Of a stretch of DNA of 29,282 bases, positions 2,971 to 20,392 are shown one piece after another. Each line of letters starts with the position of its first letter. Within the stretch, counting starts at the first letter, position 1. The notes beneath the pieces are model-generated. The model made no database searches, was not told where the DNA came from, and saw only the letters and a program-made list of their open reading frames with translations. The position numbers and the translations under genes were made by a program. Source of the DNA: a virus; IMG/VR virus record IMGVR_UViG_3300047289_000017, positions 1 to 29,282 of that record; one strand, 5' to 3'.

Positions 2971-2981
2971 CATATTTATAG
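2971..2981 (+). promoter_or_regulatory. CATATTTATAG motif upstream of RHH gene
   Basis: An AT-rich element 16 bases before the ATG at 2997. It shares the core ATATTTAT with elements before 19695 and 26904. On the other strand it reads TATAAATAT, like the T4 late-promoter core, but the genes here run the other way. Its role is unproven. Confidence 0.3.
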
Positions 2982-3224: not shown

Positions 3225-4667
3225 ATGATTAAAGGTTACATTCCAAAGGATCAAAGAAAAAAGATCCTGTTTATGTGCGACGACATTAGAATGACAAGTG
3301 GTATTTCCACCATGGCAAGAGAGATTGTAATCGGTACATCTCACAGATTTAATTGGATTAATTTAGGTGGTGCTATTGAACACCCCGATGCAGGCAAAAG
3401 ATTGGACATTAGCGAAGATACTAACAACATTATGGGTATTAAAGATGCTTCTGTGTTTATCTATCCTATCAATGGATACGGTACACAAGAGCTGATAAGA
3501 CAATTAATTGAAATTGAAAAGCCTGACGCTATCATGTTCTTTACGGATCCTAGGTACTGGATTTGGTTGTTTCAAATGGAAAGCGAGATAAGAAAGAAAA
3601 TCCCAATGATTTACTTAAATATATGGGACGATTTACCTGCTCCACTGTACAACAAAGCCTATTACGAATCTTGTGATACACTAATGGCAATTTCTAAGCA
3701 GACTTTAAACATCAATAGAATGGTGTTAGGCGATAGAATAGAAAATAAAATACTTAAGTACGTACCACACGGTATCAATCATAAGATCTATTTTCCTATC
3801 AACGAATTCATGAAGGACGATACTGCTAACGTAGAAAAGAAAAGAGAACAGCTATTCGGTAAAGACCAACCAGAATTCGTAGTATTCTATAACGCTAGAA
3901 ACATTAGACGTAAGAGTACCTCAGATTTGATTGCAGCCTACTCAGAGTTCTGTGAATCTATCGGAAAAGAAAAAGCAAAGAAGTGCGCGTTGTTATTACA
4001 TACGCAAGTAAGAGATGACAACGGTACAGATCTATCAGTAGTAAGAGATTTACTATGCGATCCAGAATACGTTAAAGTTATATTCCACGACGCAAGAGTT
4101 CCAAGCAACGAAGTGAATTGGCTGTATAATATTTCAGACGTTACTGCATTGATTTCTTCTAACGAAGGTTGGGGATTATCTTTAACAGAGTCTTTGATGG
4201 CCGGTAAAATGATTATAGCTAACGTCACAGGCGGTATGCAAGATCAAATGAGATTTGAAGACGAAGATGGAAATTGGATTGACTTTGACGAGAACTTCTG
4301 TTCTAATCACTTTGGAACTTACAAGAAACATGGAGAATGGGCAGTGCCTGTATTCCCTACAAATTCTAGTATTGTAGGATCTATTCCAACTCCGTATATC
4401 TTTGACGATCGTTGTGATTTCAGAGATGTAGCGAAAGCAATCAAACAAGTGTACGACTTAGATCCACAAGAAAGAGCCAAGAGAGGAAATGCTGGTAGAG
4501 AATGGGTTTTATCAGCAGAAGCTAAGATGAGTGCAGAAACTATGTGTGAAAACGTAGTAGAATGTATTGATCAAACTTTTGAAACATTCGAACCTAGAAA
4601 ATCTTTTGAATTAACAAAGATAGATAAATTACCAAGAAAAAAAATAGTACATAAATTAACATATTAA
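3225..4667 (+). CDS. GT-B glycosyltransferase (GT4-like)
   Basis: A 480-residue retaining-type glycosyltransferase with two Rossmann-like halves. The N-terminal part (ILFMCDDIRMTSGISTMAREI) has the glycine/serine loop of an acceptor domain. The C-terminal part has the donor-binding E-x7-E motif EGWGLSLTE (E314, E322), preceded by VFYNARNIRRKSTSDLI. The donor is a nucleotide sugar; which sugar cannot be told. It opens the sugar island, and the next transferase follows after one base. There is no signal peptide or membrane anchor, so it acts in the cytoplasm. Confidence 0.85.
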   Translation: MIKGYIPKDQRKKILFMCDDIRMTSGISTMAREIVIGTSHRFNWINLGGAIEHPDAGKRLDISEDTNNIMGIKDASVFIYPINGYGTQELIRQLIEIEKPDAIMFFTDPRYWIWLFQMESEIRKKIPMIYLNIWDDLPAPLYNKAYYESCDTLMAISKQTLNINRMVLGDRIENKILKYVPHGINHKIYFPINEFMKDDTANVEKKREQLFGKDQPEFVVFYNARNIRRKSTSDLIAAYSEFCESIGKEKAKKCALLLHTQVRDDNGTDLSVVRDLLCDPEYVKVIFHDARVPSNEVNWLYNISDVTALISSNEGWGLSLTESLMAGKMIIANVTGGMQDQMRFEDEDGNWIDFDENFCSNHFGTYKKHGEWAVPVFPTNSSIVGSIPTPYIFDDRCDFRDVAKAIKQVYDLDPQERAKRGNAGREWVLSAEAKMSAETMCENVVECIDQTFETFEPRKSFELTKIDKLPRKKIVHKLTY

Positions 4668-4668
4668 T

Positions 4669-5961
4669 ATGAAGCAATACTGTGTTATAAGTTGTCCAAT
4701 CGACACTTATTCAGGTTACGGAGCAAGAGCAAGAGATTTTGTAAAAGCGTTATACGAATTAAAGAAAGACGAATACGACATAGAGATACTCGCTCAAAGA
4801 TGGGGTTCAACTCCATGGGGATATATAAAAGATCACAGCGAAGAATGGGGATTCTTAGAACCATTGCTAGCAAAACAACAGATGAGCAAACAGCCCGACG
4901 TATGGATTCAGATCACGGTTCCTAACGAATTCCAACAGATCGGTAAATTCAATATTGGAGTTACAGCAGGTATAGAAACAACTCTATGTCATGCTAGTTG
5001 GATAGACGGCGTAAATAGAATGAACGTTACATTAGTATCTTCTCAACACGCTAAAACGGTATTTCAACAGTCTACATTTGAAGAGAAGAATCAACAAGGC
5101 CAAGTGACTAGACAAATCAAATTGGAAAAACCAGTTGAAGTGTTATTCGAAGGAGTGGATCTAAACAAATACTTCTACATCGCAGACGAAGATTTAGATG
5201 GCACAGATTTGGTACAATCATTAGACGAAATCAAAGAAGAGTTCTGCTACCTATTTGTGGGGCATTGGTTACAAGGAGCTTTAGGAGAAGACAGAAAGAA
5301 CGTAGGTTTAATGTTAAAGACTTTCTTAGAGACCTTTAAAAATAAAAAGAATAGACCTGCATTGATATTAAAAGTATCAGGCGCTGGATCTTCTGTAATG
5401 GATAGAGAGGATATGCTCAATAGAATTGAGAGCGTTAGATCTACTGTTTCTGGAGATTTACCTAACGTATATCTATTGCACGGAGAATTGGACGACAAGG
5501 ATATTAACAACCTATACAATCACGGCAAAGTAAAAGCAATGATCAGCTTAACTAAAGGTGAAGGATTTGGTAGACCGTTATTAGAGTTCACGCTATCTAA
5601 GAAACCATTAATCACAACAGCATGGTCAGGTCATACTGATTTCTTATTCATCGAAAATGTGTGTATGATAGGAGGAGAAATTAAACCGGTTCATCCATCT
5701 GCACAAGTTAAAGATATGTTATTAGCCGAATCAGGTTGGTTTAGTCCAGACGTTAAGCAAGCAGAATTCTATTTAAGAGATGTATACGAGAAGTATTCTA
5801 AGTACGAAGAGAAAGCAAAGAAGCAAGCACATCAATCAAAAACTAAGTTTAACTTTGATGAAATGAAAAATGTGTTGGCTACTTACTTAGATAAAATTCC
5901 TAAACAAGTGGGATTGACATTACCTAAACTTAAAAAAATAGAAGTTAAAAATGACAAGTAA
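4669..5961 (+). CDS. GT-B glycosyltransferase (GT4/GT1-like)
   Basis: A 430-residue glycosyltransferase. The N-terminus CPIDTYSGYGARARDFVKAL is the acceptor-side loop. The donor-side E-x7-E motif is EGFGRPLLE (E298, E306), followed by SKKPLITTAWSGHTDFL as in GT4 enzymes. It differs enough from the preceding gene not to be a recent duplicate. The pair probably adds successive sugars. The end overlaps the following small gene by 11 bases. Confidence 0.85.
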   Translation: MKQYCVISCPIDTYSGYGARARDFVKALYELKKDEYDIEILAQRWGSTPWGYIKDHSEEWGFLEPLLAKQQMSKQPDVWIQITVPNEFQQIGKFNIGVTAGIETTLCHASWIDGVNRMNVTLVSSQHAKTVFQQSTFEEKNQQGQVTRQIKLEKPVEVLFEGVDLNKYFYIADEDLDGTDLVQSLDEIKEEFCYLFVGHWLQGALGEDRKNVGLMLKTFLETFKNKKNRPALILKVSGAGSSVMDREDMLNRIESVRSTVSGDLPNVYLLHGELDDKDINNLYNHGKVKAMISLTKGEGFGRPLLEFTLSKKPLITTAWSGHTDFLFIENVCMIGGEIKPVHPSAQVKDMLLAESGWFSPDVKQAEFYLRDVYEKYSKYEEKAKKQAHQSKTKFNFDEMKNVLATYLDKIPKQVGLTLPKLKKIEVKNDK

Positions 5962-6166
5962 AGAATTTTGTATGTGGCTCAAAGGATTTACCGAAGGGGT
6001 CCACGAGTTTAATATAACACCAAAACAGTGGGATTTATTAAAAGAAAAATTAGCAGAAGTAAATGATGAACCTCGTAATACCATAGCATACTACTCTAAA
6101 GATGGTAGACCCACTTGGTATACAGCTACTAATACAACTAACGAAAAAACATTATTAAATGACTGA
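5951..6166 (+). CDS. Small phage protein, FCMWLKGF type
   Basis: A 71-residue protein of a kind common in phages: an N-terminal helix EFCMWLKGFTEGVHEFNITPKQWDLLKEKLAEV, then a short polar tail. I know the pattern (aromatic WLxGF, then T-P-x-Q and an amphipathic helix) from many phage genomes, but no function has been established that I know of. It overlaps neighbours on both sides (11 and 8 bases). Its place inside a sugar island is odd for a protein with no sugar link. Confidence 0.7.
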   Translation: MTSKEFCMWLKGFTEGVHEFNITPKQWDLLKEKLAEVNDEPRNTIAYYSKDGRPTWYTATNTTNEKTLLND

Positions 6167-6605
6167 TCAATTAACAATATGTCCAAAGTGTAAAGCAGAA
6201 GATGCTTGTTATGTTACTCCTATCAATGAGTTTCATAACGTATATGCTTGCTTTAGCTGCGGATTTACTACGAGCGATTTAATGAGAGAAGGAGAATTTG
6301 ATTTCGAACAATACGAAGCAGAGTTTCCAGAATTATATAAAGATATCAAACACGTAGATGAAGATAAACGAGTATGGTATCCTCAAGTAATTAATATAGA
6401 AAATCAAGGCACCGTATTTGCAAATGGAAGTAGCGCTGAAGATTGGGAATGGAGTGCAATCAAATCTATTAAATTGACAGAAGAAGAGAAAGACACACCT
6501 AAATTCAAAGGTAAAACCCACAAATCAGATTCAGCTAGTCTAAAAGGATTCGGAAGCGACTTCTTTGATGCTTGCGATTACATTGGGTTATTTGAAGTAA
6601 AATAA
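6159..6605 (+). CDS. Zinc-ribbon phage protein
   Basis: A 148-residue protein. CPKC (residues 8-11) and CFSC (about 31-34) form a zinc ribbon. The remainder is acidic with aromatic residues (FDFEQYEAEFPELYKDIKHV, WYPQVINI) and ends with a KGFGSDFFDACDYIGLF segment. It overlaps the upstream gene by eight bases. The function is unknown. A zinc ribbon followed by an acidic body suggests a protein- or nucleic-acid-binding accessory, not an enzyme. Confidence 0.7.
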   Translation: MTDQLTICPKCKAEDACYVTPINEFHNVYACFSCGFTTSDLMREGEFDFEQYEAEFPELYKDIKHVDEDKRVWYPQVINIENQGTVFANGSSAEDWEWSAIKSIKLTEEEKDTPKFKGKTHKSDSASLKGFGSDFFDACDYIGLFEVK

Positions 6606-6610
6606 AGAAT

Positions 6611-7222
6611 ATGAAAATAAGTTACGCAATCACTGCTCACAACGAAGCAGAAGAATTAAACAGGCTATTAAAGCAACTTACAGAAGGCAAGCAAGGCGAA
6701 GATGAGATCATCATTCAGTTAGACGATACAGCAACAGACAAAGTAAAGTTTGTTGTAGATATCTATCCAGTAAAGTCAATTACATTTCCGCTTAACAAAG
6801 ACTTTGCAGCTTTTAAAAATAACCTAAAGAAAAATTGTACAGGCGATTACATCTTTTTTATTGATGCAGACGAATACCTATCTGAGCACTTATTAAAATT
6901 AATTAAAGAGGTATTAGAAGCGAATAGTAATGTAGAATGCTATGGAGTTCCTAGAGTAAACACTGTTAAAGGTCTTACTGAAGAACACATCAAAACATGG
7001 CATTGGAGAGTAGACGAAAAAGGCAGAGTTAATTGGCCTGATTATCAAACAAGAATATGTAAGAACATTGAGTCAATTCAATGGGTTGGTAAAGTTCACG
7101 AAAGATTGGAAGGTTGGAAAACATCTTCTATATTTCCTGCTGAATTTGAAGACTGGGCTTTGTACCATCCTAAAGACATTCAAAGACAAGAACAGCAAAA
7201 CTCCTTATACAACACTATATGA
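6611..7222 (+). CDS. GT2-family glycosyltransferase, short
   Basis: A 203-residue GT-A type transferase. The start KISYAITAHNEAEELNRLLKQL is the GT2 nucleotide-binding opening. IIIQLDDTATDK is the first acidic site, and FFIDADEYL contains the metal-binding D85-A-D87. W-x-WRVDEKGR...YQTRICKN and KVHERLEGW follow as in tandem-type GT2 enzymes. It is shorter than most GT2 proteins and has no membrane segment. The stop overlaps gmd by four bases, which ties it to the GDP-sugar genes. Confidence 0.8.
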   Translation: MKISYAITAHNEAEELNRLLKQLTEGKQGEDEIIIQLDDTATDKVKFVVDIYPVKSITFPLNKDFAAFKNNLKKNCTGDYIFFIDADEYLSEHLLKLIKEVLEANSNVECYGVPRVNTVKGLTEEHIKTWHWRVDEKGRVNWPDYQTRICKNIESIQWVGKVHERLEGWKTSSIFPAEFEDWALYHPKDIQRQEQQNSLYNTI

Positions 7223-8202
7223 GTAAAGTAGCACTAATTACTGGTATTAACGGTCAAGACGGAAGTTATTTAGCCGAGTTATTATTAGAGAAAGGATACG
7301 AAGTGCACGGCACACTAAAGAGAAATTCTGTAGCTGAGAATCAAACAGCGAGAATTCAAGTGTACGATCAGATAAAAGATAATTTGACTTACGCAGATAT
7401 GACCGACTTAGCATCTCTTAATAGAGTGTTGGCTAAAGTACAACCAGATGAGATATACAACTTAGCGGCTCAATCTCATGTAAGAATATCATTCGATCAA
7501 CCAGTGTATACCGCAAATACTGTGGGTATAGGAACTCTTAATCTATTGGAAGCTGCGCTATCTACGTGTAAGAATGCAAAGATATATCAAGCATCTTCTT
7601 CTGAAATGTTTGGTAACTGCATAGACAAAGACCGATTTCAAAGAGAGACCACACCAATGAATCCAGTATCTCCTTACGGTTGCGCTAAAGTATTTGGATA
7701 TAACATAACAAGGAATTATAGAAACTCTTATGGTATGTTCGTATCTAATGGAATTCTATTTAACCACGAATCACCAAGAAGAGGTACTAACTTCGTAACA
7801 AATAAAGTAGTTAAAGAAGCTGTTAAGATATTCTACGGTCAATCAACGGAATTGAGATTGGGTAACTTAGAAGCAACAAGAGATTGGGGTCATGCTAAAG
7901 ATTATGTAGAAGCAATGTGGAGAATATTACAATTAGAAGATGCAGACGATTTTGTTTGTGCTACAGGTACTTCACATTCGGTTAGACAATTATGTGAATA
8001 TGTTTTTAGCAAATTAGAATTAAACTACGAAGACTACGTAAAGCTAGACATGAAGTTTCTAAGACCAGAAGAGTTAACAGATTTAAAAGGAGATCCTAGC
8101 AAATTAATGAAAGCTACTGGTTGGAAACCTACTTATACGTTTGAAACGATGTTGGACGAGATGATTTCATATTGGTTAAAAGAATTAAATAGAGTATTCT
8201 AA
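7219..8202 (+). CDS. gmd: GDP-mannose 4,6-dehydratase
   Basis: A 327-residue short-chain dehydratase converting GDP-D-mannose to GDP-4-keto-6-deoxy-D-mannose. Residues 5-15 (ALITGINGQDG) form the NADP-binding G-x2-G-x2-G. The family hallmarks RNS, YNLAAQSHV, SSSEMFGN and SPYGCAK (Y153, K157) are all present, as is NHESPRRGTNFVT, typical of Gmd. It is somewhat shorter than the bacterial enzyme (about 340-370). It overlaps the next gene (TAATG), which encodes the following enzyme in the pathway. The product can feed both the fucose branch and possibly the 3-dehydratase at 9769. Confidence 0.95.
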   Translation: MSKVALITGINGQDGSYLAELLLEKGYEVHGTLKRNSVAENQTARIQVYDQIKDNLTYADMTDLASLNRVLAKVQPDEIYNLAAQSHVRISFDQPVYTANTVGIGTLNLLEAALSTCKNAKIYQASSSEMFGNCIDKDRFQRETTPMNPVSPYGCAKVFGYNITRNYRNSYGMFVSNGILFNHESPRRGTNFVTNKVVKEAVKIFYGQSTELRLGNLEATRDWGHAKDYVEAMWRILQLEDADDFVCATGTSHSVRQLCEYVFSKLELNYEDYVKLDMKFLRPEELTDLKGDPSKLMKATGWKPTYTFETMLDEMISYWLKELNRVF

Positions 8203-9101
8203 TGACAAAAGTAATTACCGGAGGAACAGGATTAATAGGATCTGCTTTTAATGAAGGAATTAAATTAACTTCTAAGAGAGACCTAAGAGATTACGACAAA
8301 GCTAAATTCGCAATATCAATGTACAAGCCAGATGTGGTAGTGCACTGCGCAGCAAAAGTCGGTGGAGTTGGGGCTAACATGCAATTTCCTGCTGATTTTT
8401 TTATGGACAACATTAGAATGAATACGAATGTAATTCAAGCTTGTCAAGAGTTAAAGATACCAAAACTAGTTTCATTTTTATCTACGTGTGTATTTCCTGA
8501 TAAAGTGGAATATCCATTGGATGAAACTAAAATAGAACTAGGTCCACCACACTCATCTAACTTCGCTTACGCTTACGCTAAGAGAATGGCTGACGTACAG
8601 ATTAGAGCATTCAACCAACAATACGGTACACAATACTTTTCAGTGATTCCTTGTAACGTATATGGACCAAACGATAACTATAGCTTAGAAGTAGGTCATG
8701 TAATTCCAATGTTAATTCACAAGTGTTATCTGGCCAAAAAGAATAGAAAGACTTTTGAAGTATGGGGTGATGGTACTCCACTTAGAGAATTTGTTTATTC
8801 AAAAGACGTAGCGAACATAGTAGATCTACTTATCCAGAAATATACAGGGACTGAACCAGTGATCATATCTAATCCAACTGAGTATTCCATTAAGCACGTA
8901 GTTGATCTGATTGTGGAGTACATGGGCTTCAAAGGGAAAGTAAAGTGGTTGACAGACAAACCAAACGGACAACACAGAAAACCATCGTCTAATGCTAAAC
9001 TTTTGAGTATCATTGGAGACTATGAGTTTACCACTTTGGAGAAAGGTTTAAAAGAATCAATAGAATGGTTTATATTAAATTACCCAAACGTTAGAAAATA
9101 A
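8202..9101 (+). CDS. fcl: GDP-L-fucose synthase
   Basis: A 299-residue epimerase/reductase producing GDP-L-fucose from GDP-4-keto-6-deoxymannose. It has GGTGLIGSAF for NADP, FLSTCVFPDK (S94, C96), YAYAKRM (Y123, K127) and EVGHVIP (H166), which are the catalytic serine, cysteine, tyrosine, lysine and histidine. Several blocks (STC-FPDK-YP-DET, GPPH-SNF-Y-YAKRM-DVQ, the closing Q-K-SN-KL) recall the animal enzyme more than E. coli WcaG. It directly follows gmd with a one-base overlap. A GDP-colitose synthase role is possible, since those enzymes are related, but the adjacent GT11 transferase favours fucose. Confidence 0.93.
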   Translation: MTKVITGGTGLIGSAFNEGIKLTSKRDLRDYDKAKFAISMYKPDVVVHCAAKVGGVGANMQFPADFFMDNIRMNTNVIQACQELKIPKLVSFLSTCVFPDKVEYPLDETKIELGPPHSSNFAYAYAKRMADVQIRAFNQQYGTQYFSVIPCNVYGPNDNYSLEVGHVIPMLIHKCYLAKKNRKTFEVWGDGTPLREFVYSKDVANIVDLLIQKYTGTEPVIISNPTEYSIKHVVDLIVEYMGFKGKVKWLTDKPNGQHRKPSSNAKLLSIIGDYEFTTLEKGLKESIEWFILNYPNVRK

Positions 9102-9772
9102 TGACAAGAGAAATAGTAATAGCAGCGTACGACAAATACTTGGATTGGTTAGATAAATTCAATTCAGATATTAAAGTTACTGTCTATAGAAAAGGAGAAG
9201 AAGCAAAACAAAGAGAAGACGAGATTAAATTAGAACCTAATAAGGGTAGATGCGTACATACATTCTTTAATCACATATACACTAACTACGACAATCTATC
9301 AGATATTACATTCTTTGGTCAAGATTGGCCTTTCGACCATTGGGAAGATATCGTAGAAGTTGTAAACAATGGCACTGAAAACCTTAGGCATCAATTAAAA
9401 ATAGGAGGCTATTACGGATTTCATTTCAATACCATAACAGTTCCATCTCCATTAGGCGGCACAATGTGGGCATTGAGTCCATCTAAACAACACGGAGAAG
9501 GAAGAGTGTTAGTTTGTCAAAGCAATGGATATCCTCAAGACTCTAATCCAAATATAAACGTAGACAAATACTGGGATTTATTATTTACAGATGAAAAGCC
9601 TACAGAATATGAATTCATGCCAGGCGGTCATTTCGGAATTACCAAAGAACATGCTCAATTAAGATCTAAAGAGTTCTATAAAAATGTGTGCGATTTTCTA
9701 TTAGAAGATGAATCAGCACCGTGGATGATAGAAAGATTAGAGTGTTACATATTCAACCCAAACATAAAATGA
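9101..9772 (+). CDS. DUF3431-like protein
   Basis: A 223-residue protein resembling DUF3431 proteins: an opening IVIAAYDKYLDWLDKF, a YRKGEE block, PNKGRCVHTFFNHIYTNYDNLSDITFFGQDWPFDH, and an ending MPGGHFGITKEH-LR. The family is found near glycosyltransferases in fungi, bacteria and viruses, and its fold is thought to be transferase-like. No reaction is established. It overlaps both neighbours (1 and 4 bases), within the GDP-sugar part of the island, so a role in the same glycan is likely. It could be a glycosyltransferase of an undefined family. Confidence 0.75.
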   Translation: MTREIVIAAYDKYLDWLDKFNSDIKVTVYRKGEEAKQREDEIKLEPNKGRCVHTFFNHIYTNYDNLSDITFFGQDWPFDHWEDIVEVVNNGTENLRHQLKIGGYYGFHFNTITVPSPLGGTMWALSPSKQHGEGRVLVCQSNGYPQDSNPNINVDKYWDLLFTDEKPTEYEFMPGGHFGITKEHAQLRSKEFYKNVCDFLLEDESAPWMIERLECYIFNPNIK

Positions 9773-11870: not shown

Positions 11871-12703
11871 TAAGTTATAAAAAGATAGGACATTTTGGTC
11901 GTCTCGGAAATCAGATGTTTCAATTTGCTTCCACTGTAGGCGTAGCTAATAAAACTGGACATGATGTAGCATTTCCAAAAGAGAATGTAGATGTACCAAG
12001 CGTAGAGCACTTTAAAGACGGAGTTAGAAGAGAAGTCTATTTTGATTTACCTAAGTATTTCGACAATGTTAAGTTGACGTTAAAACCAGAATCTGAAATA
12101 CAAACGTTACATATAGCACAAGAACCTTACTTCCATTTCTGTCAAGATCTATTTAGAGTTCCAGATCAGACCAATTTAATGGGTTATTTTCAAACAGAAA
12201 AGTACTTTGAACACTGTAGCGAAACAATACGAGAATTCTTTGAATTCAATTCAGAAACAAAAAAGAAAGCCGAGTCCTCATTCCCAGTATTCCCTATGCA
12301 ATTAGAATTTGTATCAGTGCATTTAAGAAAGGGAGATTATGCCGGTCTTCAACAGTTTCATCCCGTAATGGATGCTGACTACTACTTCAATGCTATGACC
12401 CATTTTATGAATGGTAACTATTGTTTCTTAATATTCTCTGACGATATAGAATACGCAAAAGAATTGTTTGGAGATCAAGAGAACATTATTTACATGGAAG
12501 GAAACGATCCTGATGTAGATATGTGTATGATGAGTATGTGTCATCACAACGTAATAGCTAATAGCAGTTTTAGTTGGTGGGGCGCATGGTTAAACCAAAA
12601 TCCCAATAAAAAAGTTATAGCTCCAAAAAAATGGTTTGGTCCTGCCTACAACGGAGTTCACGATACAAAAGATTTATACCCTCAATCATGGATAAAAGCG
12701 TAA
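11867..12703 (+). CDS. GT11-family fucosyltransferase (alpha-1,2 type)
   Basis: A 278-residue transferase. GHFGRLGNQMFQFAS is the family opening and HLRKGDY (H152-D157) is the HxRxGD(Y) motif binding GDP-fucose. MMSMCHHNVIANSSFSWWGAWLN and VIAPKKWFGP are the conserved C-terminal blocks of FutC/WbsJ/FUT1-like enzymes. It would transfer L-fucose from GDP-L-fucose to a galactose-type acceptor; linkage and acceptor are not shown by the sequence. It lies three genes after the GDP-fucose pathway and overlaps the gene before by four bases. Confidence 0.92.
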   Translation: MISYKKIGHFGRLGNQMFQFASTVGVANKTGHDVAFPKENVDVPSVEHFKDGVRREVYFDLPKYFDNVKLTLKPESEIQTLHIAQEPYFHFCQDLFRVPDQTNLMGYFQTEKYFEHCSETIREFFEFNSETKKKAESSFPVFPMQLEFVSVHLRKGDYAGLQQFHPVMDADYYFNAMTHFMNGNYCFLIFSDDIEYAKELFGDQENIIYMEGNDPDVDMCMMSMCHHNVIANSSFSWWGAWLNQNPNKKVIAPKKWFGPAYNGVHDTKDLYPQSWIKA

Positions 12704-13404
12704 TACCTTTTTTTAGTGTCGCTATTCCTACATGGGGAATTCAAGGTAAAGGAGTCGAATACTTAGAACACTCATTTAATATATTAGCGCAACAGAGCTT
12801 TACAGATTTTGAAGTAGTTATATCAGATCATAGCGAAGATGACGACATAGAGAACTTATGTAATTCTTGGAGTTCAATGATGAATATTAAGTGCTTTAGA
12901 AACTCTAATGGTAGAGGCAAAATAGCGCCGAATATGAATAACGCTATTGAACATTCAAGCGGTCTATTTATCAAGATGTTATTTCAAGACGATTTCTTAT
13001 ACGATACAGATTCTCTTCAGATCATATACGATAGTATAGCGGAGAATCAAGACAAAGATTGGTTTATTACGGCGTGTGTACATACAGATGATTGCGTAAC
13101 TATGTATGATAGAATGACTCCTTACTATCACGATCGCATATATGCAGGAGTTAATACTATAAGTTGTCCGTCTGTACTGACAATTAGAAATGAATATACA
13201 AAACCAAAATTTGATGAGACATTGAATTGGTTGGTGGACGTGGAGTACTATAAAAGATTACACATGATATATGGAGATCCTGTTGTTATAGATATGGTAT
13301 GCACAGTTAATAGAAATTCAGAAGTAAGAGCTACCAATATAATAACAGAGAGACAAAAACAAGAAGAAATTCAAAGAGTAATAAGACGATATGAAACTAA
13401 ATAA
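12688..13404 (+). CDS. GT2-family glycosyltransferase
   Basis: A 238-residue GT-A transferase from the ATG at 12688; an upstream extension would overlap the fucosyltransferase in another frame. FFSVAIPTWGIQGKGVEYLEHSFNIL and FEVVISDHSEDDDIE are the GT2 opening and first acidic site. NMNNAIEHSSGLFIKMLFQDDFLYD includes the QDDF metal site, and LNWLVDVEYYKRL is the later helix. Donor and acceptor are unknown. It overlaps the upstream gene by 16 bases and the downstream one by 14. Confidence 0.82.
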   Translation: MDKSVIPFFSVAIPTWGIQGKGVEYLEHSFNILAQQSFTDFEVVISDHSEDDDIENLCNSWSSMMNIKCFRNSNGRGKIAPNMNNAIEHSSGLFIKMLFQDDFLYDTDSLQIIYDSIAENQDKDWFITACVHTDDCVTMYDRMTPYYHDRIYAGVNTISCPSVLTIRNEYTKPKFDETLNWLVDVEYYKRLHMIYGDPVVIDMVCTVNRNSEVRATNIITERQKQEEIQRVIRRYETK

Positions 13405-14047
13405 TGTAACCATTGCAGCCGTAGCAGGTACTAAAGCTATCGAAACTCTTAAGGCTATTAAGTATAGTATGCGAGAGCTAGAGTTTGACCGTGCAATCCT
13501 AATTACTCCAGAAGATATACAAGACGATCAAGTAGAGATCATTAAGTGCGAACCACTAAACTACGAACAATACAATCACTTTATAGTTTACAGACTACAC
13601 GAGTACATTACAACTACACACTGCTTATTAATTCAGAACGATGGATACGTAGTGAATCCAGACAAATGGCAAGACGAGTGGATGCAATACGATTACATAG
13701 GTGCTTTATGGCCACTGCCTCAAGACGACTTCTCTTTCAGAGATCAAGACGGAAACATACAAAGAATGGGTAATGGAGGATTCACACTAAGAAGTAAAAA
13801 GCTATTATGTGTGGCAAATGATTTAGATTTGGAATGGAAACAGTATTATGGATTCTATCATGAAGACGGATTCTTTTGTTGTCACCATAGAAAAACTTAT
13901 GAATCAGCTGGATGTAAGTTTGCACCAATAGAGGTAGCTGCACAATTTAGTCATGAAACCATGGTAGCAGAAAATTATGGAAACATACCATTTGGATTTC
14001 ATGGAAGAAACAATTATTATTATCACATAACACAAAAAAGTTTATAA
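13391..14047 (+). CDS. DUF5672-like putative glycosyltransferase
   Basis: A 218-residue protein matching DUF5672: NVTIAAVAGTKAIETLKAIKYS at the start, then HFIVYRLHEYITTTHCLLIQNDGYVVNPDKW, DYIGALWP, RMGNGGFTLRSKKLL and FYHEDGFFC. The IQNDG and GNGGF blocks resemble GT-A folds, and the family occurs in glycan clusters, but I know of no measured activity. It is embedded between GT2 and methyltransferase genes, with overlaps on both sides. Confidence 0.8.
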   Translation: MKLNNVTIAAVAGTKAIETLKAIKYSMRELEFDRAILITPEDIQDDQVEIIKCEPLNYEQYNHFIVYRLHEYITTTHCLLIQNDGYVVNPDKWQDEWMQYDYIGALWPLPQDDFSFRDQDGNIQRMGNGGFTLRSKKLLCVANDLDLEWKQYYGFYHEDGFFCCHHRKTYESAGCKFAPIEVAAQFSHETMVAENYGNIPFGFHGRNNYYYHITQKSL

Positions 14048-14622
14048 TGAACGAAGAACAAAGATTAGAAGAACTATTTAACATCCCAAGAATGGGTCAC
14101 GCTGCATTAGAACCTCACAATAGCGTAAGAGGCCTTTATGAATTAGTTAAATTATACATAACTTCAGATACTGAGATGGTAGAGATCGGATCTTTTCAAG
14201 GCGTATCTACAATGTTATTTGCCTTATTTGCAAAAAAAGTAAATAGCGTAGATTGTTACGATTATGTTGTACCTCCAACAGGCAGAATCCCTTCTCACGA
14301 TCAATTGTTCGTGGATGCTGAGAAAGTATTTATAGAAAGGACTTCTCACATAAAAAATATAAATAAGATTAGAAAATCTAGTGTTGAAGCCTCTAATGAT
14401 TTCGTAGATGGATCTTTAGATCTAGTATACGTAGATGCTGAACACGATCCAATTAGTGTTAGATCTGATATTAATGCGTGGAAGAATAAGATTAAAATTG
14501 GTGGCATTTTATGCGGACATGATTTCTATCTACCACACATCTACACTATTTTACACGAAGAAGGATTAATCAACGAATTGTATACATATCCAGACAGTTC
14601 ATGGTCTGTAATAATTAAATAA
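14047..14622 (+). CDS. Class I SAM-dependent methyltransferase
   Basis: A 191-residue protein. EMVEIGSFQGVSTMLFALFA is motif I (E-x-G-x-x-x-G) for S-adenosylmethionine. VNSVDCYDYV is the acidic end of strand 2, and DLVYVDAEHDPISVRSDINAWKNKIKIGGILCGHDF is the Methyltransf_24-type motif with metal-binding-like D and H residues. O-methylation of a sugar is the likely role, for example capping the glycan. It starts on the last base of the preceding gene and ends one base before the epimerase. Confidence 0.8.
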   Translation: MNEEQRLEELFNIPRMGHAALEPHNSVRGLYELVKLYITSDTEMVEIGSFQGVSTMLFALFAKKVNSVDCYDYVVPPTGRIPSHDQLFVDAEKVFIERTSHIKNINKIRKSSVEASNDFVDGSLDLVYVDAEHDPISVRSDINAWKNKIKIGGILCGHDFYLPHIYTILHEEGLINELYTYPDSSWSVIIK

Positions 14623-14623
14623 T

Positions 14624-15619
14624 ATGAAGGTATTAATAACAGGAGTCGCAGGTCTATTAGGTTCAAGACTTGCGGATTGGATTATAGAACATAAACCAGA
14701 AGTAGAGGTAGTAGGTATCGATGATTTATCAGGAGGCTACTTAGAGAATGTAAACCCAAAGGTTAATTTCTGGCAGATGAATTTAGTAGAACATCCTATT
14801 GAGAATTGTTTTGCTACTAACGAATTTGATTATGTATTCCACTTCGCAGCTTACGCAGCAGAAGGTTTAAGTCCATTCATTAGAAGATACAACTACGATA
14901 ATAACCTAGTCGCAACAGCAAGAGTTGTTAACAATTGTATTAAGTACGATGTGAAGAGACTAATCTTTACTTCTACTTTAGCTGTATACGGTCATGGTTA
15001 TGGTGGCATATTCGACGAAACACAAGTGCCTAAGCCAATAGATCCATACGGAGTTGCTAAGTACGCTTGTGAGATGGACATTCAAATTGCGGGTGAACAA
15101 CATGGTTTGGATTGGTGTATCATTAGACCACACAATGTATACGGTCGTAAGCAAAATATATGGGATAAGTATCGTAATGTATTGGGTATTTGGATGTATC
15201 AACAGATGAACGGAGAACCAATGACAATCTTTGGAGACGGTACACAAACAAGAGCGTTTAGTTGTATCGACGATATAGTTGAACCGCTATGGAATTCAGC
15301 AATAGAACCACGAGCATCTAAAGAGATTATCAATTTAGGAGGAGTAGAAGAGTGGAGTATCAACGACGCAAATAAAGTATTAAGAGATATAATCAAATAC
15401 GGAGCAGAGTATCAATATAAAGAAGGAAGACACGAAGTAAAGCATTCAATTCCTACATATCAGAAATCAGAAGACATTCTTGGTTTTAAACATAAGACTA
15501 CGTTAGAGGAAGGATTATATGATATGTGGTTATGGGCACAACGTCAACCAAATAGAGACAGATTCGTTTGGCCTTCATACGAATTAGACAAAGGCATTTA
15601 TTCATTCTGGAAAAAGTAA
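14624..15619 (+). CDS. NAD-dependent nucleotide-sugar epimerase/dehydratase
   Basis: A 331-residue extended SDR. KVLITGVAGLLGSRLADWI is the NAD loop, and VVGIDDLSGG carries the acidic residue typical of NAD preference. FHFAAYAAEGL, FTSTLAVYG and DPYGVAKYACE (Y142, K146) are the active-site blocks, and RPHNVYGRKQNIWDKYRNV is GalE/UDP-glucuronate-epimerase-like. The length is normal for the family. It probably interconverts C4 epimers of a UDP-sugar; the exact substrate cannot be read. Confidence 0.85.
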   Translation: MKVLITGVAGLLGSRLADWIIEHKPEVEVVGIDDLSGGYLENVNPKVNFWQMNLVEHPIENCFATNEFDYVFHFAAYAAEGLSPFIRRYNYDNNLVATARVVNNCIKYDVKRLIFTSTLAVYGHGYGGIFDETQVPKPIDPYGVAKYACEMDIQIAGEQHGLDWCIIRPHNVYGRKQNIWDKYRNVLGIWMYQQMNGEPMTIFGDGTQTRAFSCIDDIVEPLWNSAIEPRASKEIINLGGVEEWSINDANKVLRDIIKYGAEYQYKEGRHEVKHSIPTYQKSEDILGFKHKTTLEEGLYDMWLWAQRQPNRDRFVWPSYELDKGIYSFWKK

Positions 15620-15620
15620 T

Positions 15621-16514
15621 ATGATATACACAAAATTCATGTACGGTCAAGGTTTCGGTAACCAGCTTGCAGTTTATGTAACAACTAGAGCCATAGCTAA
15701 AAGAAACGGTTACGAGTTCGGTTATGCAGGTTTAGAAAACTTTGGAGACAGAAGATACAACGACAAAGGCGTGTACTTTATGGATATAGATTTGGGTACA
15801 CAAGTGCCTGAACACGAGTTCAACATGTACACAGAAAAAGAAACAAGAATAAAGCTAGATCATTCAGAACACGATCGTACCCATGGTTGTGATATAAGAT
15901 TAATAGACCAAGATCTGTTGAATGTAGCTGACGACACTAGAATTATGGGTATTATGCAAGGCGAAGACTATTTTTGGAATTATAGAGAAGAGATTAAAGA
16001 CTGGTTAAAAGTAAAACCAGAATTTGATTGCGTAGATTATAGTCAAGATGACATATGTGTATTGAATATTAGAGACTACGAAGCAGATCCTACTCTATTC
16101 TTATCAAGAGATTATTGGGTTAAAGCAATCTATCACATGCTTAGTTTAAACCCTAACATGCAATTCTTAGTTATCACCGAGAATCCTGATATGGCAAAGA
16201 GATTGCTACCAGAATTAACCGACAATGTATATCACTTTGATTTAGCTAAAGACTATTCTATTGTTAAGAATGCTAAGTGGTTAATCATATCCAATTCAAG
16301 CTTTGCTTATTTTCCAGCATTTTGTAGTGATGCTCATCTAATTATAGCACCGAAGTATTGGTGTAGACACAACGTATCTGATGGATATTGGAGTTGTGGT
16401 TATAACATAAGTCGTAAGTTTACATACATGGATAGACAAGGCCAATTACAATCTTATACTGATGTAGCAAGAGAATTTGAATTATATAAAAAAGAAAGCA
16501 AGATATATGGCTAG
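15621..16514 (+). CDS. Divergent GT11-like glycosyltransferase
   Basis: A 297-residue protein. It opens with KFMYGQGFGNQLAVYVTTRAIAKRNGY, the GT11/fucosyltransferase N-terminal loop. Where HxRxGDY is expected it has CVLNIRDYEADP, keeping Arg and Asp but losing His and Gly. AKWLIISNSSFAYFPAFCSDAHLIIAPKYW parallels the NSSFSWW...VIAPKKW block of the enzyme at 11867. It may use another GDP-sugar or be a fucosyltransferase of different specificity. It overlaps the next gene by eight bases. Confidence 0.7.
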   Translation: MIYTKFMYGQGFGNQLAVYVTTRAIAKRNGYEFGYAGLENFGDRRYNDKGVYFMDIDLGTQVPEHEFNMYTEKETRIKLDHSEHDRTHGCDIRLIDQDLLNVADDTRIMGIMQGEDYFWNYREEIKDWLKVKPEFDCVDYSQDDICVLNIRDYEADPTLFLSRDYWVKAIYHMLSLNPNMQFLVITENPDMAKRLLPELTDNVYHFDLAKDYSIVKNAKWLIISNSSFAYFPAFCSDAHLIIAPKYWCRHNVSDGYWSCGYNISRKFTYMDRQGQLQSYTDVAREFELYKKESKIYG

Positions 16515-17370
16515 AGTATTTGATGTGTTTACATTCTTTAATGAATTGGATTTATTAGAACTAAGATTAGAGATGTTAGATCCATACGTAGATCAATTCG
16601 TATTGATAGAATGCGTAGAAACTTTCTCAGGTAAACAGAAGCCATTGCACTTCATGAATAACAAAGAGAGGTTCTCAAAGTATTTACATAAAATATACCA
16701 TCATGTAACTTATGATCCACCAAAATCATTCGACGATTTACAACAAAGAATAACGAATCCTAATATAGATAAAGATGTTAAGCAAGTTTGTATACAAGCT
16801 TTAACTAGTTCTAATGTGCCTAAAGGAGAATTACACTGGCTAAAAGAATTCTATCAAAAAGAAACTATAAGATTTGCTATAGAAAATGCTGGAGCAGAGA
16901 ACGACGATCTAATATTCGTTACAGATTTAGACGAGATATGGAATCCAGAGTTAGACTATACGCAAATAGAAAACGATAAGATATACAAGTTAAGACAACT
17001 GGCATATTCAGGTTACATGAACATAAGATCTTCAGAAGATTGGGCCGGTACATTATTAACCAGATATACAAATATAGATGGAGCTTGTTTAAACCATCTT
17101 AGAACTCCATCAAAAACTAAGTACGAGTACGTTAACAATGCGGGTTGGCACTTCACATTTATGGGAGGAGAGAAACAAGTTAAGATGAAGTTAGAAGCTT
17201 ACGGTCACCAAGAGTACAACAACGATTCTGTTAAGGATAGAGTCAAAGATTTACTAGCAAACGGTCAAGACGTTTTAGGCAGAACCAATTTTAGATTTTG
17301 GTTGGACGAATCGCAACTGCCAAAGTATTTACTAGATAACAAACAAAAGTATAAACAATTTTTTAGATGA
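16507..17370 (+). CDS. GT17-family glycosyltransferase
   Basis: A 287-residue protein resembling GT17 (beta-1,4-N-acetylglucosaminyltransferase III family). It has ARVFDVFTFFNELDLLELRLEML at the start, VDQFVLIECVETFSGKQKPLHF, then ETIRFAI and LIFVTDLDEIWNP with the DxD-type acidic site. AGWHFTFMGGEKQVKMKLEAYGHQEYN closes the domain. The ATG at 16507, with an eight-base overlap on the upstream stop, fits better than the upstream in-frame ATG inside the previous gene. The family is known in eukaryotes, bacteria and large viruses. A GlcNAc donor is likely but not proven. Confidence 0.85.
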   Translation: MARVFDVFTFFNELDLLELRLEMLDPYVDQFVLIECVETFSGKQKPLHFMNNKERFSKYLHKIYHHVTYDPPKSFDDLQQRITNPNIDKDVKQVCIQALTSSNVPKGELHWLKEFYQKETIRFAIENAGAENDDLIFVTDLDEIWNPELDYTQIENDKIYKLRQLAYSGYMNIRSSEDWAGTLLTRYTNIDGACLNHLRTPSKTKYEYVNNAGWHFTFMGGEKQVKMKLEAYGHQEYNNDSVKDRVKDLLANGQDVLGRTNFRFWLDESQLPKYLLDNKQKYKQFFR

Positions 17371-18503
17371 TAACATTCTGCATACCAAGCAAGAACAACT
17401 TACGATACTTAAAACCTTGTATCAAATCTATTCAAGATAATTCTTACTATCCAAATCAAATCATTGTGTATGTAGATCAAGACACAGACGGAACTGTAGA
17501 ATGGTTGAGAGAGAATGGTATTAAGTTCATTCAAAACCACGAAGCGACTCCAAGAGGAATTGGCTTCGCTTACGATAACATGTTTCAATGGGCCGACAGA
17601 GAATATGTAATAGCATTTCACGCCGACATGATTCTTGGTCCTCATGCGGATAAACACATGATGGATATTAAAACAAAGGACAACATCGTTTGCGCCACTC
17701 GTATAGAACCACCGTTACATCCAGCTGGAATAGAGAAGATCGTGCAAGATTTTGGTATGTGGCCAGAAGATTTAAAGATTGAAGAGTTTAACAAGTTCGT
17801 CGAAGCTAACAAAAGCGATAAGATAACTAAAAGCATCTTCGCTCCGTGGTTAATTAGAAAGGACCAACACTTAGGACATGATCCTATATTCTTGTCAGTA
17901 TTCGAAGACGCTGATCTATTTAGAAGATTCAAATTAAAAGGTTACGATTTGATTCAATCTTGGTCTGCAATGGTATATCACTTAACTTGTAGAGGCGGAC
18001 AATTTGCACACGCAGAAAAGATGGAAGACTTTCAAAAGAAGGACGAGAGCTGGCAGAAGAATAACCAAATATCCGCTAACGAATACATTAGAAAGTGGGG
18101 AGGATTTTTAAAACAGTCTGATACATTAGAACCTATCCCTAATATCAAGTACAATATAGGTCTTAGAATATTAAATTGTTTCAATGATGGTATGATGGGA
18201 GTAGAACCATACTTTGATCAGATACAATGCGAAGCAGATCCTACAAATTACATTAACAGAATTAAAGACGCTACTTCTTTCGATATAGCTTCTAAGTTTG
18301 TAAGTGAGTTAACAACAGATATGATACTAGAAGCGGACTACAAAGATATTCTTAATAATCAAGAACTTTTTAATTATATCTTGCATAATCTACCAGATTT
18401 AATTGCGAATGAAGTTAAAGAAATTGGAGAATACGAACTACAGATATTCAAACTAATTGTAAATAAGGTAGAACAACATCAACCTAAATTAAATTTATGC
18501 TAA
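17367..18503 (+). CDS. GT2-family glycosyltransferase, tandem copy 1
   Basis: A 378-residue protein. The N-terminal half is a GT2 domain: TFCIPSKNNLRYLKPCIKSI, IIVYVDQDTDGTVEWL, FHADMILGP (acidic site), CATRIEPPLHPAG and FEDADLFRRFKLKGYDLIQSW...VYHLTCRG. The last 120 or so residues are an extra domain of unknown type. It shares most of these blocks with the next gene, so the two arose by duplication. The start overlaps the GT17 gene by four bases. Confidence 0.85.
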   Translation: MITFCIPSKNNLRYLKPCIKSIQDNSYYPNQIIVYVDQDTDGTVEWLRENGIKFIQNHEATPRGIGFAYDNMFQWADREYVIAFHADMILGPHADKHMMDIKTKDNIVCATRIEPPLHPAGIEKIVQDFGMWPEDLKIEEFNKFVEANKSDKITKSIFAPWLIRKDQHLGHDPIFLSVFEDADLFRRFKLKGYDLIQSWSAMVYHLTCRGGQFAHAEKMEDFQKKDESWQKNNQISANEYIRKWGGFLKQSDTLEPIPNIKYNIGLRILNCFNDGMMGVEPYFDQIQCEADPTNYINRIKDATSFDIASKFVSELTTDMILEADYKDILNNQELFNYILHNLPDLIANEVKEIGEYELQIFKLIVNKVEQHQPKLNLC

Positions 18504-19672
18504 CACAAAAACAAGTTACATTAGTAATACCGTCAAGTAATAACTTAAGACATTTAAAGAATGCATACGCAAGTATAAAGAAAAATGCGTGGCATTGTAA
18601 GATCGTTATGTTAGACGATGGATCAACTGACGGTACCACTGAATGGTTATCAGGTTTAAATGATGATAATATCACAGCCATATACAGATCTTCAGAAAGA
18701 GTGGGTCATACTGTATTATATGATAAAGGAATAGAGTTAGCAGAAACTGAAGTAGTTGGTATTATGCACGCAGATATGATATTGGGTCCATATTACTTAG
18801 AGAACATGTTAAAGCACTTAAGTAAAGAAACTGTGGTATGCGCCACTCGTGTAGAACCGCCTTTACATCCAGCTGGTAAAGAAAAGATCATTAAGGATTT
18901 TGGCACTGACTTCGACAACTTAAACATAAACGCTTTCGAAGCCTATGTTTTAGAAGCTCAACAAGAATATAAAGATCAAACGACAAACGGTATGTTTGCT
19001 CCTTGGATTATATATAAAGAAGACTTCATTGCAATGGGTGGCCACGATAAGTTATTTGCTCCATTTCCTTACGAAGACTCAGATATATTCCAAAGATGGA
19101 TATTACATGGATACGAACTAATCCAGTCAAGAGACGCATTCGTATACCACTTAACTTGTAGAGGACACAGATGGACAGAAGAGATTGGCAAGGACGACGA
19201 CTACTTTAAGAATGCATCTGCTAAAGCTGCAAGAAACTATATCAGAAAGTGGGGTAGCTGGATTGAGAACGACGAGTATCAAATGCCGATATTAAAACCG
19301 AGGTACGATATAGGAATAGTTGTGGAGAATTGCGATGCTAACCTATTACTATCATTAGAGCCCTGGTTCAATAACATATACGTAGATCAGACTTTAATTG
19401 CTGACTATATAAAACATGAACAGCCTAAGACAGATCTAATCCTTGAAGCTAGGGTGCGTAATATAGAAGAGCCAAAGCAGAACGATATACTTATCTACTT
19501 TGACGCAAAAGAGAACGTGGATCTAAACATAGTTCCAAATATACAGGTCATCATTAGAGAATCGGTAGACGCAGTAGGTACGTACGAATACAATGGACTT
19601 AAGATAGACGTATTACAAATGGTAGATCATACAGACAAAATGATGGGAACATTCATCAAGAACGTATTCTAA
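18497..19672 (+). CDS. GT2-family glycosyltransferase, tandem copy 2
   Basis: A 391-residue paralogue of the preceding gene. It shares VIPSSNNLRHLKNAYASI, MHADMILGP, CATRVEPPLHPAG, YEDSDIFQRWILHGYELIQS, VYHLTCRG and NYIRKWGSW. The C-terminal 120 residues differ more and contain D-rich strand segments (DILIYFDAKENVDLNIVPNIQVIIRES). It ends the sugar island. The pair could add the same kind of sugar in sequence or act as a heterodimer. Confidence 0.85.
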   Translation: MLTQKQVTLVIPSSNNLRHLKNAYASIKKNAWHCKIVMLDDGSTDGTTEWLSGLNDDNITAIYRSSERVGHTVLYDKGIELAETEVVGIMHADMILGPYYLENMLKHLSKETVVCATRVEPPLHPAGKEKIIKDFGTDFDNLNINAFEAYVLEAQQEYKDQTTNGMFAPWIIYKEDFIAMGGHDKLFAPFPYEDSDIFQRWILHGYELIQSRDAFVYHLTCRGHRWTEEIGKDDDYFKNASAKAARNYIRKWGSWIENDEYQMPILKPRYDIGIVVENCDANLLLSLEPWFNNIYVDQTLIADYIKHEQPKTDLILEARVRNIEEPKQNDILIYFDAKENVDLNIVPNIQVIIRESVDAVGTYEYNGLKIDVLQMVDHTDKMMGTFIKNVF

Positions 19673-19682
19673 ATATTTATAA
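19672..19682 (+). promoter_or_regulatory. AATATTTATAA motif after the sugar island
   Basis: An AT-rich near-palindrome beginning at the stop codon of the last glycosyltransferase and ending 13 bases before the ATG at 19695. It shares ATATTTAT with elements at 2971 and 26886. It is a candidate promoter for the next gene group. Confidence 0.3.
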
Positions 19683-20024: not shown

Positions 20025-20040
20025 AATATTAAAACTAGTT

Positions 20041-20391: not shown

Positions 20392-20392
20392 G

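Follow-up and report, generated by a model that had tools for sequence, protein, structure and literature searches.

Aquatic T4-like phages, namely cyanophages and pelagimyophages (S-SCSM1, P-SSM2), carry clusters of LPS genes and a host recognition cluster (PMC9602691, PMC7029224), and S-SCSM1 has GDP-fucose genes together with fucosyltransferases (PMC9602691). The pelagimyophages have a hypervariable glycosyltransferase region whose neighbours are tail-fibre genes and which was taken to diverge gradually and not by complete replacement (PMC7029224). Chlorovirus PBCV-1, the virus of a eukaryotic host, glycosylates its capsid protein in the cytoplasm with mostly soluble virus-encoded enzymes, and the resulting glycans share a conserved core and come in antigenic variants (PMC5408694, PMC7826918); no swappable cassette locus is reported in the chlorovirus texts consulted. 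For tailed phages, glycans are reported on the capsid and tail tube subunits of mycobacteriophages (Freeman 2023, as cited in PMC12619734). Bacterial O-antigen and capsule loci and replacement genomic islands have constant flanks around exchangeable sugar genes and are replaced as blocks. Mycobacteriophage virion glycosylation involves few transferase genes and is not known to involve a large sugar-synthesis island.

The locus studied here lies on an IMG/VR fragment of 29,282 bases (the window; Table 1). In contrast to the pelagimyophage region, a fixed frame of transferase genes encloses cargo that is swapped as a block. In contrast to bacterial O-antigen and capsule loci, no Wzx-type flippase or priming transferase was found (13 related phage genomes), and the island forms a compact phage operon of late type. 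The glycosyltransferase cluster gp183-gp164 of the cultured Flavobacterium phage immuto (vB_FspM_immuto, Immutovirus, NC_055915) has the same frame order (DUF3310, PD-(D/E)XK, small ORF, GTB1 (63%), GTB2 (57%), Zn-ribbon, GT2 ... GT2 (WcaA), HNH) and the same upstream ATATTTAT motif. Its cargo, however, is almost wholly different: it measures 7.0 kb against 12.5 kb in the window and holds two aminotransferase genes annotated as WecE and a pilin-glycosylation-like gene, but no Gmd or Fcl. The papers searched do not describe a swappable locus.

Table 1. Features of the island and its flanks in the window, with the matches on which the labels are based.
Feature	Position	Strand	Evidence or remark
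Left flank gene; constant frame	1756..2031	+	position of immuto DUF3310-annotated gene; conserved order
PD-(D/E)XK exonuclease (EXO); constant frame	2031..2948	+	PDDEXK_1 3.8e-20; late-type motif not upstream
Late-type promoter motif ATATTTAT	2972..2979	+	motif end to 2997 start = 17 nt
72-aa protein (s72), first operon gene; constant frame	2997..3215	+	171 loci
GTB1, GT-B glycosyltransferase; constant frame	3225..4667	+	Glycos_transf_1 PF00534 3.7e-10; 195 loci
GTB2, GT4-type GT-B glycosyltransferase; constant frame	4669..5961	+	PHROG 2170 glycosyltransferase 2.9e-20; 193 loci
71-aa protein; frame, optional	5951..6166	+	88 loci
Zn-ribbon protein (ZnR); constant frame	6159..6605	+	C8/C11/C31/C34 invariant; model pLDDT 94
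GT2a, GT2 glycosyltransferase; last left-frame gene	6611..7222	+	PF00535 1e-16
Gmd, GDP-mannose 4,6-dehydratase; cargo	7219..8202	+	PF16363 1e-117
Fcl, GDP-L-fucose synthase; cargo	8202..9101	+	NCBIfam 8e-62; PDB GDP-L-fucose synthase 5e-82
DUF3431 protein; cargo	9101..9772	+	PF11913 1e-12
RfbH/E1-type PLP/PMP + [2Fe-2S] sugar 3-dehydrase; cargo	9721..11055	+	NCBIfam RfbH 3e-109
SDR1, SDR reductase/epimerase; cargo	11055..11870	+	PF01370 3e-32
GT11 fucosyltransferase family; cargo	11867..12703	+	PF01531 6e-24
GT2b; cargo	12631..13404	+	PF00535 3e-8
DUF5672 protein; cargo	13391..14047	+	PF18922 5e-22
Methyltransf_24 methyltransferase; cargo	14047..14622	+	PF13578 1e-14
SDR2, nucleotide-sugar epimerase/dehydratase; cargo	14624..15619	+	PF01370 1.6e-40
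GT11-like glycosyltransferase; cargo	15621..16514	+	PHROG 2644 glycosyltransferase 1e-13
GT17 glycosyltransferase; cargo	16477..17370	+	PF04724 5e-28
GT2c, GT2d paralogue; cargo	17367..18503	+	PF00535 4e-13; clusters with GT2d
GT2d, GT2 at island right edge; recurrent right-frame gene	18497..19672	+	PF00535 5e-16; cluster in 40 loci
Second late-type motif ATATTTAT	19673..19680	+	opens next transcription unit (19695)
Right frame: h109, h116, h136, HNH endonuclease (20758-21480)	19695..21480	+	

A preliminary description had reported about 19 co-directional, almost gapless genes, which agrees with the 19 mechanically called ORFs on the + strand at 3225-19672 (99.95% coding, junctions of −14 to +5 nt); judging from the sequence, three of them probably start at 9769, 12691 and 16507 instead of 9721, 12631 and 16477. 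Capsid or tail genes were not recognised within the window. Pfam supported most gene labels. Of the two proposed GT-B enzymes, the one at 3225 scored above the Pfam cut-off, whereas GTB2 fell slightly below (1.4e-5) and was rescued by its PHROG match and GT-B fold. The four GT2 enzymes (6611, 12631, 17367, 18497), GT11, GT17, the DUF5672 protein and the methyltransferase each had a Pfam match, and the GT11-like label at 15621 was borne out by PHROG only. To this list we add the DUF3431 protein, the DegT/RfbH dehydrase, the SDR proteins at 11055 and 14624 and the Zn-ribbon protein. The AlphaFold model of GTB2 (pLDDT 91) had as its best PDB fold match the glycosyltransferase 3oy2 of chlorovirus NY-2A (6e-14), an enzyme whose function is not known (PMC5408694); the match is one of a generic GT4 fold at 12% identity. 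Solved relatives of GTB2 and GT11 found by sequence were not significant. The Zn-ribbon protein was considered as an acceptor or a known enzyme; its confident model gave no PDB fold match at E<0.001. The left flank gene at 1756 had no Pfam match of its own at 0.05; s72, likewise without a Pfam match, resembles by eye a ribbon-helix-helix regulator.

The preliminary description had proposed a search for the same gene order in homologues. Among more than 180 related IMG/VR loci and immuto, the frame (exonuclease, small ORF, two GT-B, Zn-ribbon, GT2 ... GT2, HNH) did recur around variable cargo, and the order EXO-s72-GTB1-GTB2-ZnR-GT2a was kept in 97 of 117 distinct frames. One frame gene was confirmed in at least 587 contig stretches. 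Phages of this group are water-dwelling. Cargo in 27 complete islands ranged from 3.1 to 13.9 kb and fell into 118 families, 75 of them seen once (single-linkage clusters at 35% identity and 60% coverage, under which truncated genes inflate the singletons). Close relatives had conserved flanks around non-homologous contents, as in a block-replaced, serotype-like island. In the pair G012/G013, identity was about 92-95% along most of the aligned left flank and 94% immediately to the right of the island, whereas the cargoes in between, both made of sugar genes, measured 9.8 and 7.5 kb and did not match; the pair G004/G014 showed the same pattern. Locus L005 shared cargo with the window at 91% identity but the left frame at 80%. 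Breakpoints of the cassettes fell within or just past GT2a, and single-gene swaps were seen between close relatives as well. As read from these alignments, cargo exchange is an O-antigen-like cassette swap. The constant feature of the group is the frame and the exchange of its contents, and not the particular glycan on which the preliminary description had centred.

That description had also named a nearly complete GDP-fucose pathway. Gmd and Fcl are indeed present, but a gene for making GDP-mannose is absent from the window. The YxxxK motif of Gmd was invariant in 36/36 homologues. Fcl has an invariant catalytic set (S94, C96, Y123, K127, H166) with a spacing that we take to be that of E. coli S107, C109, Y136, K140 and H179, although its 209 bits did not reach the NCBIfam cut-off of 500. 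The dehydrase scored 365.6 bits, below the curated RfbH cut-off of 423, and we therefore call it a relative of RfbH and not RfbH proper. It was closer to E1 (3bcx, 1.5e-76) than to ColD (2e-52) in the PDB. Its H231, which aligns with E1 H220 and replaces the PLP-binding lysine, was invariant in 81/81 phage homologues; C204, C262, C264 and C276, presumably the [2Fe-2S] ligands found at E1 positions 193, 251, 253 and 261, were kept in about 69 of the 81. Since this DegT-family protein has a histidine and not the aminotransferase lysine, we rejected GDP-perosamine as the product of the Gmd branch. SDR1 adjoins the dehydrase in phages and in four bacterial loci, and DUF3431 is the upstream neighbour of the dehydrase in 14 of 75 loci; some loci were fetched with an RfbH query, which biases the frequency of RfbH in cargo upward. 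Synechococcus phage S-H68 has an RfbH homologue too. A phage ferredoxin was rejected as electron donor, since no Fer2 protein was found in nine phage records, and a host donor was assumed. The three classes expected of a GDP-colitose pathway (ColD/ColC), namely Gmd, 3-dehydrase and reductase/epimerase, occur together in the island, but the dehydrase is nearer E1 than ColD, and 46 of the 75 loci with RfbH lacked both Gmd and Fcl in the stretch covered. As to the CDP-sugar substrate and E3 reductase partner that mark the RfbH/E1 family, no CDP-sugar gene was recognised in the window by Pfam or NCBIfam, and the nine records gave no Fer2 match. The substrate may be GDP-, CDP- or dTDP-linked. Because an E1/RfbH-type 3-dehydrase is paired with a conserved partner reductase, the glycan probably contains a 3-deoxy sugar (3,6-dideoxy, colitose-like) besides fucose, which the sugar set first described did not include. 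Of the complex, methylated, fucose-containing glycan proposed there, a dedicated phage system for a complex and probably fucosylated product stands, whereas methylation is not established by one generic Methyltransf_24 protein of undefined target.

As to timing, across four genomes ATATTTAT marked 46 of 59 virion operons but only 2 of 31 replication/metabolism genes (Fisher 3e-11; gene classes from the immuto annotation and homology), and our label 'late' derives solely from this association with virion genes. The motif heads the island in all four genomes and occurs in the EXO-GTB1 junction of 95/104 frames and at the right edge of 17/22, whereas it was absent from the 60 nt upstream of EXO in all 103 frames and not enriched in cargo. 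Some non-virion genes carry it, and an exact copy was absent at the major capsid gene in all four genomes. The motif common to virion operons and the start of the island suggests that the island is expressed late. Shine-Dalgarno-like sites were depleted (1/36 against 2.8 expected) and leaders were A-rich, in agreement with a host from the Bacteroidota, which is the probable host phylum; the promoter search found no full Bacteroidota promoter (TTTG/TAnnTTTG).

Enzyme families, constant frame, wholesale cargo replacement and the promoter-like motif shared with virion genes are read directly from the DNA. In the reading that we favour, and to which we give about an even chance, a late operon of T4-related, Immutovirus-like phages builds a strain-specific glycan, most likely onto a virion protein. 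Assembly would take place in the host cytosol. GTB1, GTB2, GT2a and GT2d of the frame would form the linkage and the shared inner or closing sugars; Gmd and Fcl would make GDP-L-fucose, and the RfbH relative with SDR1 a 3-deoxy, probably 3,6-dideoxy, sugar. The cargo transferases (GT11, GT11-like, GT17, GT2) would transfer these special sugars to give the outer structure. GTB2's chlorovirus fold match speaks for this reading, since chloroviruses glycosylate their capsid protein with viral enzymes, although its generic nature speaks against leaning on it. No virion protein was tied to the island physically or by covariation. No TM-like segment was found in any island protein, and Bac_transf PF02397, Glycos_transf_4 PF00953 and Polysacc_synt PF01943 were absent from 13 related phage genomes, where controls were positive. 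The priming phosphoglycosyltransferase and flippase of a Wzx/Wzy-type O-antigen or capsule locus were thus not found in these genomes, and we rejected a phage-encoded lipid-linked route. Among the acceptors initially considered, the late-type motif and the soluble enzymes favour a virion protein over the host surface, and DNA is unlikely. More tentatively, at somewhat short of even chances, these phages would have glycan serotypes: the late operon, combining invariant anchoring transferases with a cassette that can be exchanged, would coat each virion in one of a great many sugar structures, and cassettes would pass between phages when the conserved flanks recombine, in the manner of bacterial O-antigen and capsule loci.

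The soluble transferases could also extend the host LPS core, exported by host MsbA. Modification of the host surface is a serious alternative to which we give roughly one chance in three. Here the acceptor would be LPS core/LOS, or a different lipid-linked molecule facing the cytosol, that host machinery exports, and the change would keep competing phages or progeny from adsorbing; cassette diversity would then track competitor and host diversity. This is the usual published reading of phage LPS-gene clusters (PMC7029224, PMC9602691). Chlorovirus transferases are expressed early (PMC5408694), so virion glycosylation need not go with late expression. The cargo make-up resembles O-antigen clusters, and the RfbH-SDR1 pair is also bacterial, lying in locus L257 beside other apparent polysaccharide genes. 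Peripheral GT-B and GT2 enzymes are normal in LPS core assembly. However, the motif is shared with virion operons and not with early-type genes, and altering the surface so late, with lysis imminent, would seem to bring little gain; the 13 genomes showed no priming transferase or flippase, though host enzymes could serve.

A glycan on phage DNA bases, protecting the genome from restriction, appears improbable. Many phages are established to glycosylate their DNA with glycosyltransferases of their own (cited in PMC12619734), and immuto encodes 7-deazaguanine DNA-modification genes. G001, however, the closest full-length relative, keeps the island without a match to immuto DpdA, QueC, FolE or ThyA and without a modified-base gene of the thymidylate synthase/dCMP-hydroxymethylase family, although other routes are possible. 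The island motif is of late and not replication type, and about nine transferases with exchangeable contents far exceed what, to our knowledge, known DNA glycosylation uses. Slightly more improbable still is accidental cargo, that is, bacterial polysaccharide genes that a permissive site has repeatedly taken up and that serve no defined function. High turnover, the many families confined to one island and the single-gene swaps would fit it, but the same frame transferases flank the island across deep divergence, reading frames are intact, catalytic residues are invariant and recognisable cargo was sugar-related in the islands examined. Host DNA, a prophage or an assembly artefact, the contamination that the preliminary description had thought conceivable and to which bacterial RfbH homologues at 57-63% identity might point, is next to impossible: hundreds of phage contigs share the frame, as do cultured phages with complete sequences, the same island lies on several independent contigs (L002, L003, L006, L008) and on the 174-kb G001 contig with gp23 capsid, gp20 portal, terminase, sheath and tail genes, and base composition is even across the window.

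Returning to a virion acceptor, a glycan on the particle would mean that phages have a diversity system matching the one that their hosts turn against them, and that a single locus encodes it in an aquatic lineage that is abundant. The open question of the role of phage sugar genes could then be tested with immuto, a cultured phage, on Flavobacterium sp. LMO8; the predictions are the same core, different outer sugars and late expression. The island also supplies sugar enzymes, among them an FeS sugar 3-dehydrase family from phages. All in all, the exchanged cargo and the promoter-like motif shared with virion genes indicate that these phages may wear sugar coats that can be swapped.

Across related phages the edges and surroundings of the glycan island at 3225-19672 were constant, whereas its middle, the cargo, was variable. 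The left-hand order exonuclease, s72 (a 72-aa ORF), GTB1 and GTB2 (two GT-B transferases), Zn-ribbon gene and GT2a (a GT2 transferase) was kept in 97 of 117 distinct frames, and GTB1 adjoined GTB2 in 112 of them. Twenty-seven complete islands held cargo of 3.1-13.9 kb with 118 gene families, 75 of which were confined to one island, and median cargo overlap was zero between complete islands with 50-70% identical GTB2. Unrelated cargo can even sit in near-identical frames. The DNA of contigs G012 and G013 matched at about 94% along 9 kb of left flank and again at 94% immediately right of the island, with 9.8 and 7.5 kb without match in between and the left breakpoint at the start of GT2a. The same pattern was seen for G004 and G014 (11.9 and 8.7 kb unmatched, left breakpoint at the end of GT2a). 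Both the G012 cargo (GT2, GT10, RmlC-like, split transketolase pair, DegT, Gmd, methyltransferase) and that of G013 (FkbM, GT-B, RfbH, RmlD-like, GT2) consist of sugar genes. The transketolase-like N- and C-terminal halves, encoded as two genes (L140:15479-17097), perhaps serve a branched sugar. The opposite discordance also occurred: RfbH was 78-90% identical where GTB2 was only 42-64%, and contig L005 shared 91% identity with the window in cargo and 80% in the left frame, with an extra three-gene insert (epimerase, C-methyltransferase, GT2). Discordance in both directions shows that cargo is exchanged both as blocks and as single modules.

In the IMG/VR record of 29,282 bases analysed here, the island comprised nineteen plus-strand ORFs, 99.95% coding, with junctions of -14 to +5 nt. 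This bears out the tightly packed, one-directional gene block of the preliminary description, and domain searches recovered the transferases, Gmd and Fcl listed there; further genes are added in the table. The Zn-ribbon protein was kept between GTB2 and GT2a in 164 loci, and its confident structure model (pLDDT 94) had no significant match among PDB folds.

Motif copies in the window and island genes added to the preliminary description
Feature	Position	Strand	Remark
ATATTTAT	2972	+	before glycan operon
ATATTTAT	19673	+	just after GT2d
ATATTTAT, late-type	26887-26894	+	precedes 71-aa ORF at 26904
Zn-ribbon protein	6159-6605	+	newly listed
DUF3431 protein	9101-9772	+	newly listed
DegT-family protein	9721-11055	+	newly listed
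SDR enzyme (SDR1)	11055-11870	+	newly listed
SDR enzyme, second	14624-15619	+	newly listed

An unbiased 8-mer count in the upstream regions of G001, the closest long contig (174 kb; frame DNA 79-80% identical to the window), returned ATATTTAT with 19 observed against 0.5 expected occurrences. It lay close 5' of the tape measure, hub, tube, sheath and fibre gene starts, mostly within 4-44 nt; an exact copy at the major capsid gene was absent in four genomes. Extended forms upstream of G001 genes contain TATTTATA, which on the opposite strand reads as TATAAATA, the late box of T4. Across four genomes, 46 of 59 virion-type genes belonged to operons with the motif at their head, compared with 2 of 31 genes for replication or metabolism (Fisher 3e-11); each of the four also had it at the head of the glycan operon. 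The motif was present in the exonuclease-GTB1 junction of 95 of 104 frames, before the exonuclease in 0 of 103 and at the right island edge in 17 of 22; within cargo it fell to background level, about equally on both strands. All three window copies are on the coding strand. With the motif at the operon head and right edge and only at background in the cargo, the island looks like a single transcription unit of the virion-gene class, a class named by gene function and not by transcripts.

The best solved relative of the DegT-family protein was E1, CDP-6-deoxy-L-threo-D-glycero-4-hexulose-3-dehydrase (3bcx, 1.5e-76), followed by ColD (2e-52); the nearest NCBIfam model was RfbH (3e-109, score under the model cut-off). 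An aminotransferase was ruled out, as H231 corresponds to the E1 histidine that replaces the PLP lysine, invariant in 81/81 phage homologues. The four cysteines aligned with the E1 iron-sulphur ligands were retained in about 69 of these 81. Since RfbH and SDR1 are also neighbours in other phages and on cyanobacterial, Flavobacteriales, Saprospiraceae and Bacteriovoracaceae contigs, they probably form a single module making a 3-deoxy sugar. Its nucleotide could be GDP (with Gmd, to a colitose-like sugar), CDP or dTDP: neither Gmd nor Fcl was present in 46 of 75 RfbH loci within the stretch covered per locus, and locus L257 has RmlA-like and RmlB-like genes beside the pair. A search of nine phage records turned up no Fer2 ferredoxin, so electrons for the 3-dehydrase would be host-supplied. 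Gmd and Fcl retain their catalytic residues, and GDP-mannose must come from the host. GT17, GT11-like, SDR1, RfbH and DUF5672 homologues also occur together on a bacterium-binned Saprospiraceae MAG contig (L256, 9.5 kb), which may be a donor locus or else a piece of phage DNA binned wrongly.

By GTB1, GTB2 and exonuclease, the nearest cultured phages were Flavobacterium phage immuto (160 kb) and Microcystis phage Mel-JY01. Among the immuto-like genes of G001 are those for gp23 capsid (53%), gp20 portal, terminase, sheath and tube. Window start codons lack Shine-Dalgarno sequences and leaders are A-rich, which is consistent with a Bacteroidota host. Tandem tRNA-Ser(TGA) and tRNA-Gln(TTG) lie at 159-320, and immuto, too, has upstream genes for tRNA-Ser and tRNA-Gln. 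A remote homologue of GTB1 (25%) in Rhodothermus phage RM378 (NC_004735.1 9153-10433) suggests an ancient presence of this transferase in the lineage. Three small window proteins (24331-24936, 25681-26391, 26485-26880) contain the HExxH-type motifs HEYSH, HELCH and HEYWH; two gave weak Pfam matches (DUF6782 metallopeptidase, DUF3920), and all are possible Zn metallopeptidases.

As acceptor of the glycan, a virion protein, DNA or a host surface molecule had been considered. No island protein has membrane-like segments, and Bac_transf, Glycos_transf_4 and Polysacc_synt families were missing from 13 related phage genomes (controls positive), so a lipid-linked polysaccharide route does not appear to be phage-encoded. 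The soluble enzymes fit a soluble cytosolic acceptor, such as a virion protein. The chief alternative acceptor is on the host surface, in the form of LPS core. DNA as acceptor is improbable, since G001 keeps the island but has neither thymidylate-synthase-type nor 7-deazaguanine genes. Cytosolic glycosylation of a virion protein would resemble that of chlorovirus capsids, the best-characterised system working in such a way; there, viral enzymes act in the cytoplasm, the glycan core is conserved and antigenic variants occur (PMC5408694, PMC7826918). The GTB2 model (pLDDT 91) found its best PDB fold match in the chlorovirus NY-2A glycosyltransferase B736L (3oy2, 6e-14, 12% identity). This is no more than a lead, given how common GT4 folds are and that the chlorovirus enzyme has no assigned function (PMC5408694).

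Glycan genes in phages are as such already known; cyanophage S-SCSM1, like the window, has Gmd, Fcl and fucosyltransferases (PMC9602691). The hypervariable host recognition cluster of pelagimyophages also contains glycosyltransferases, but its authors described gradual divergence and not complete replacement (PMC7029224), whereas here cargo is replaced in blocks. Marine phage metaviromic islands are said to keep size and gene number (PMC3909814). In the open-access papers searched we found no description of a fixed transferase frame, size-changing cargo block replacement or a shared promoter motif. It is the identity of the acceptor that decides whether the system goes beyond the known kinds of phage glycan locus.
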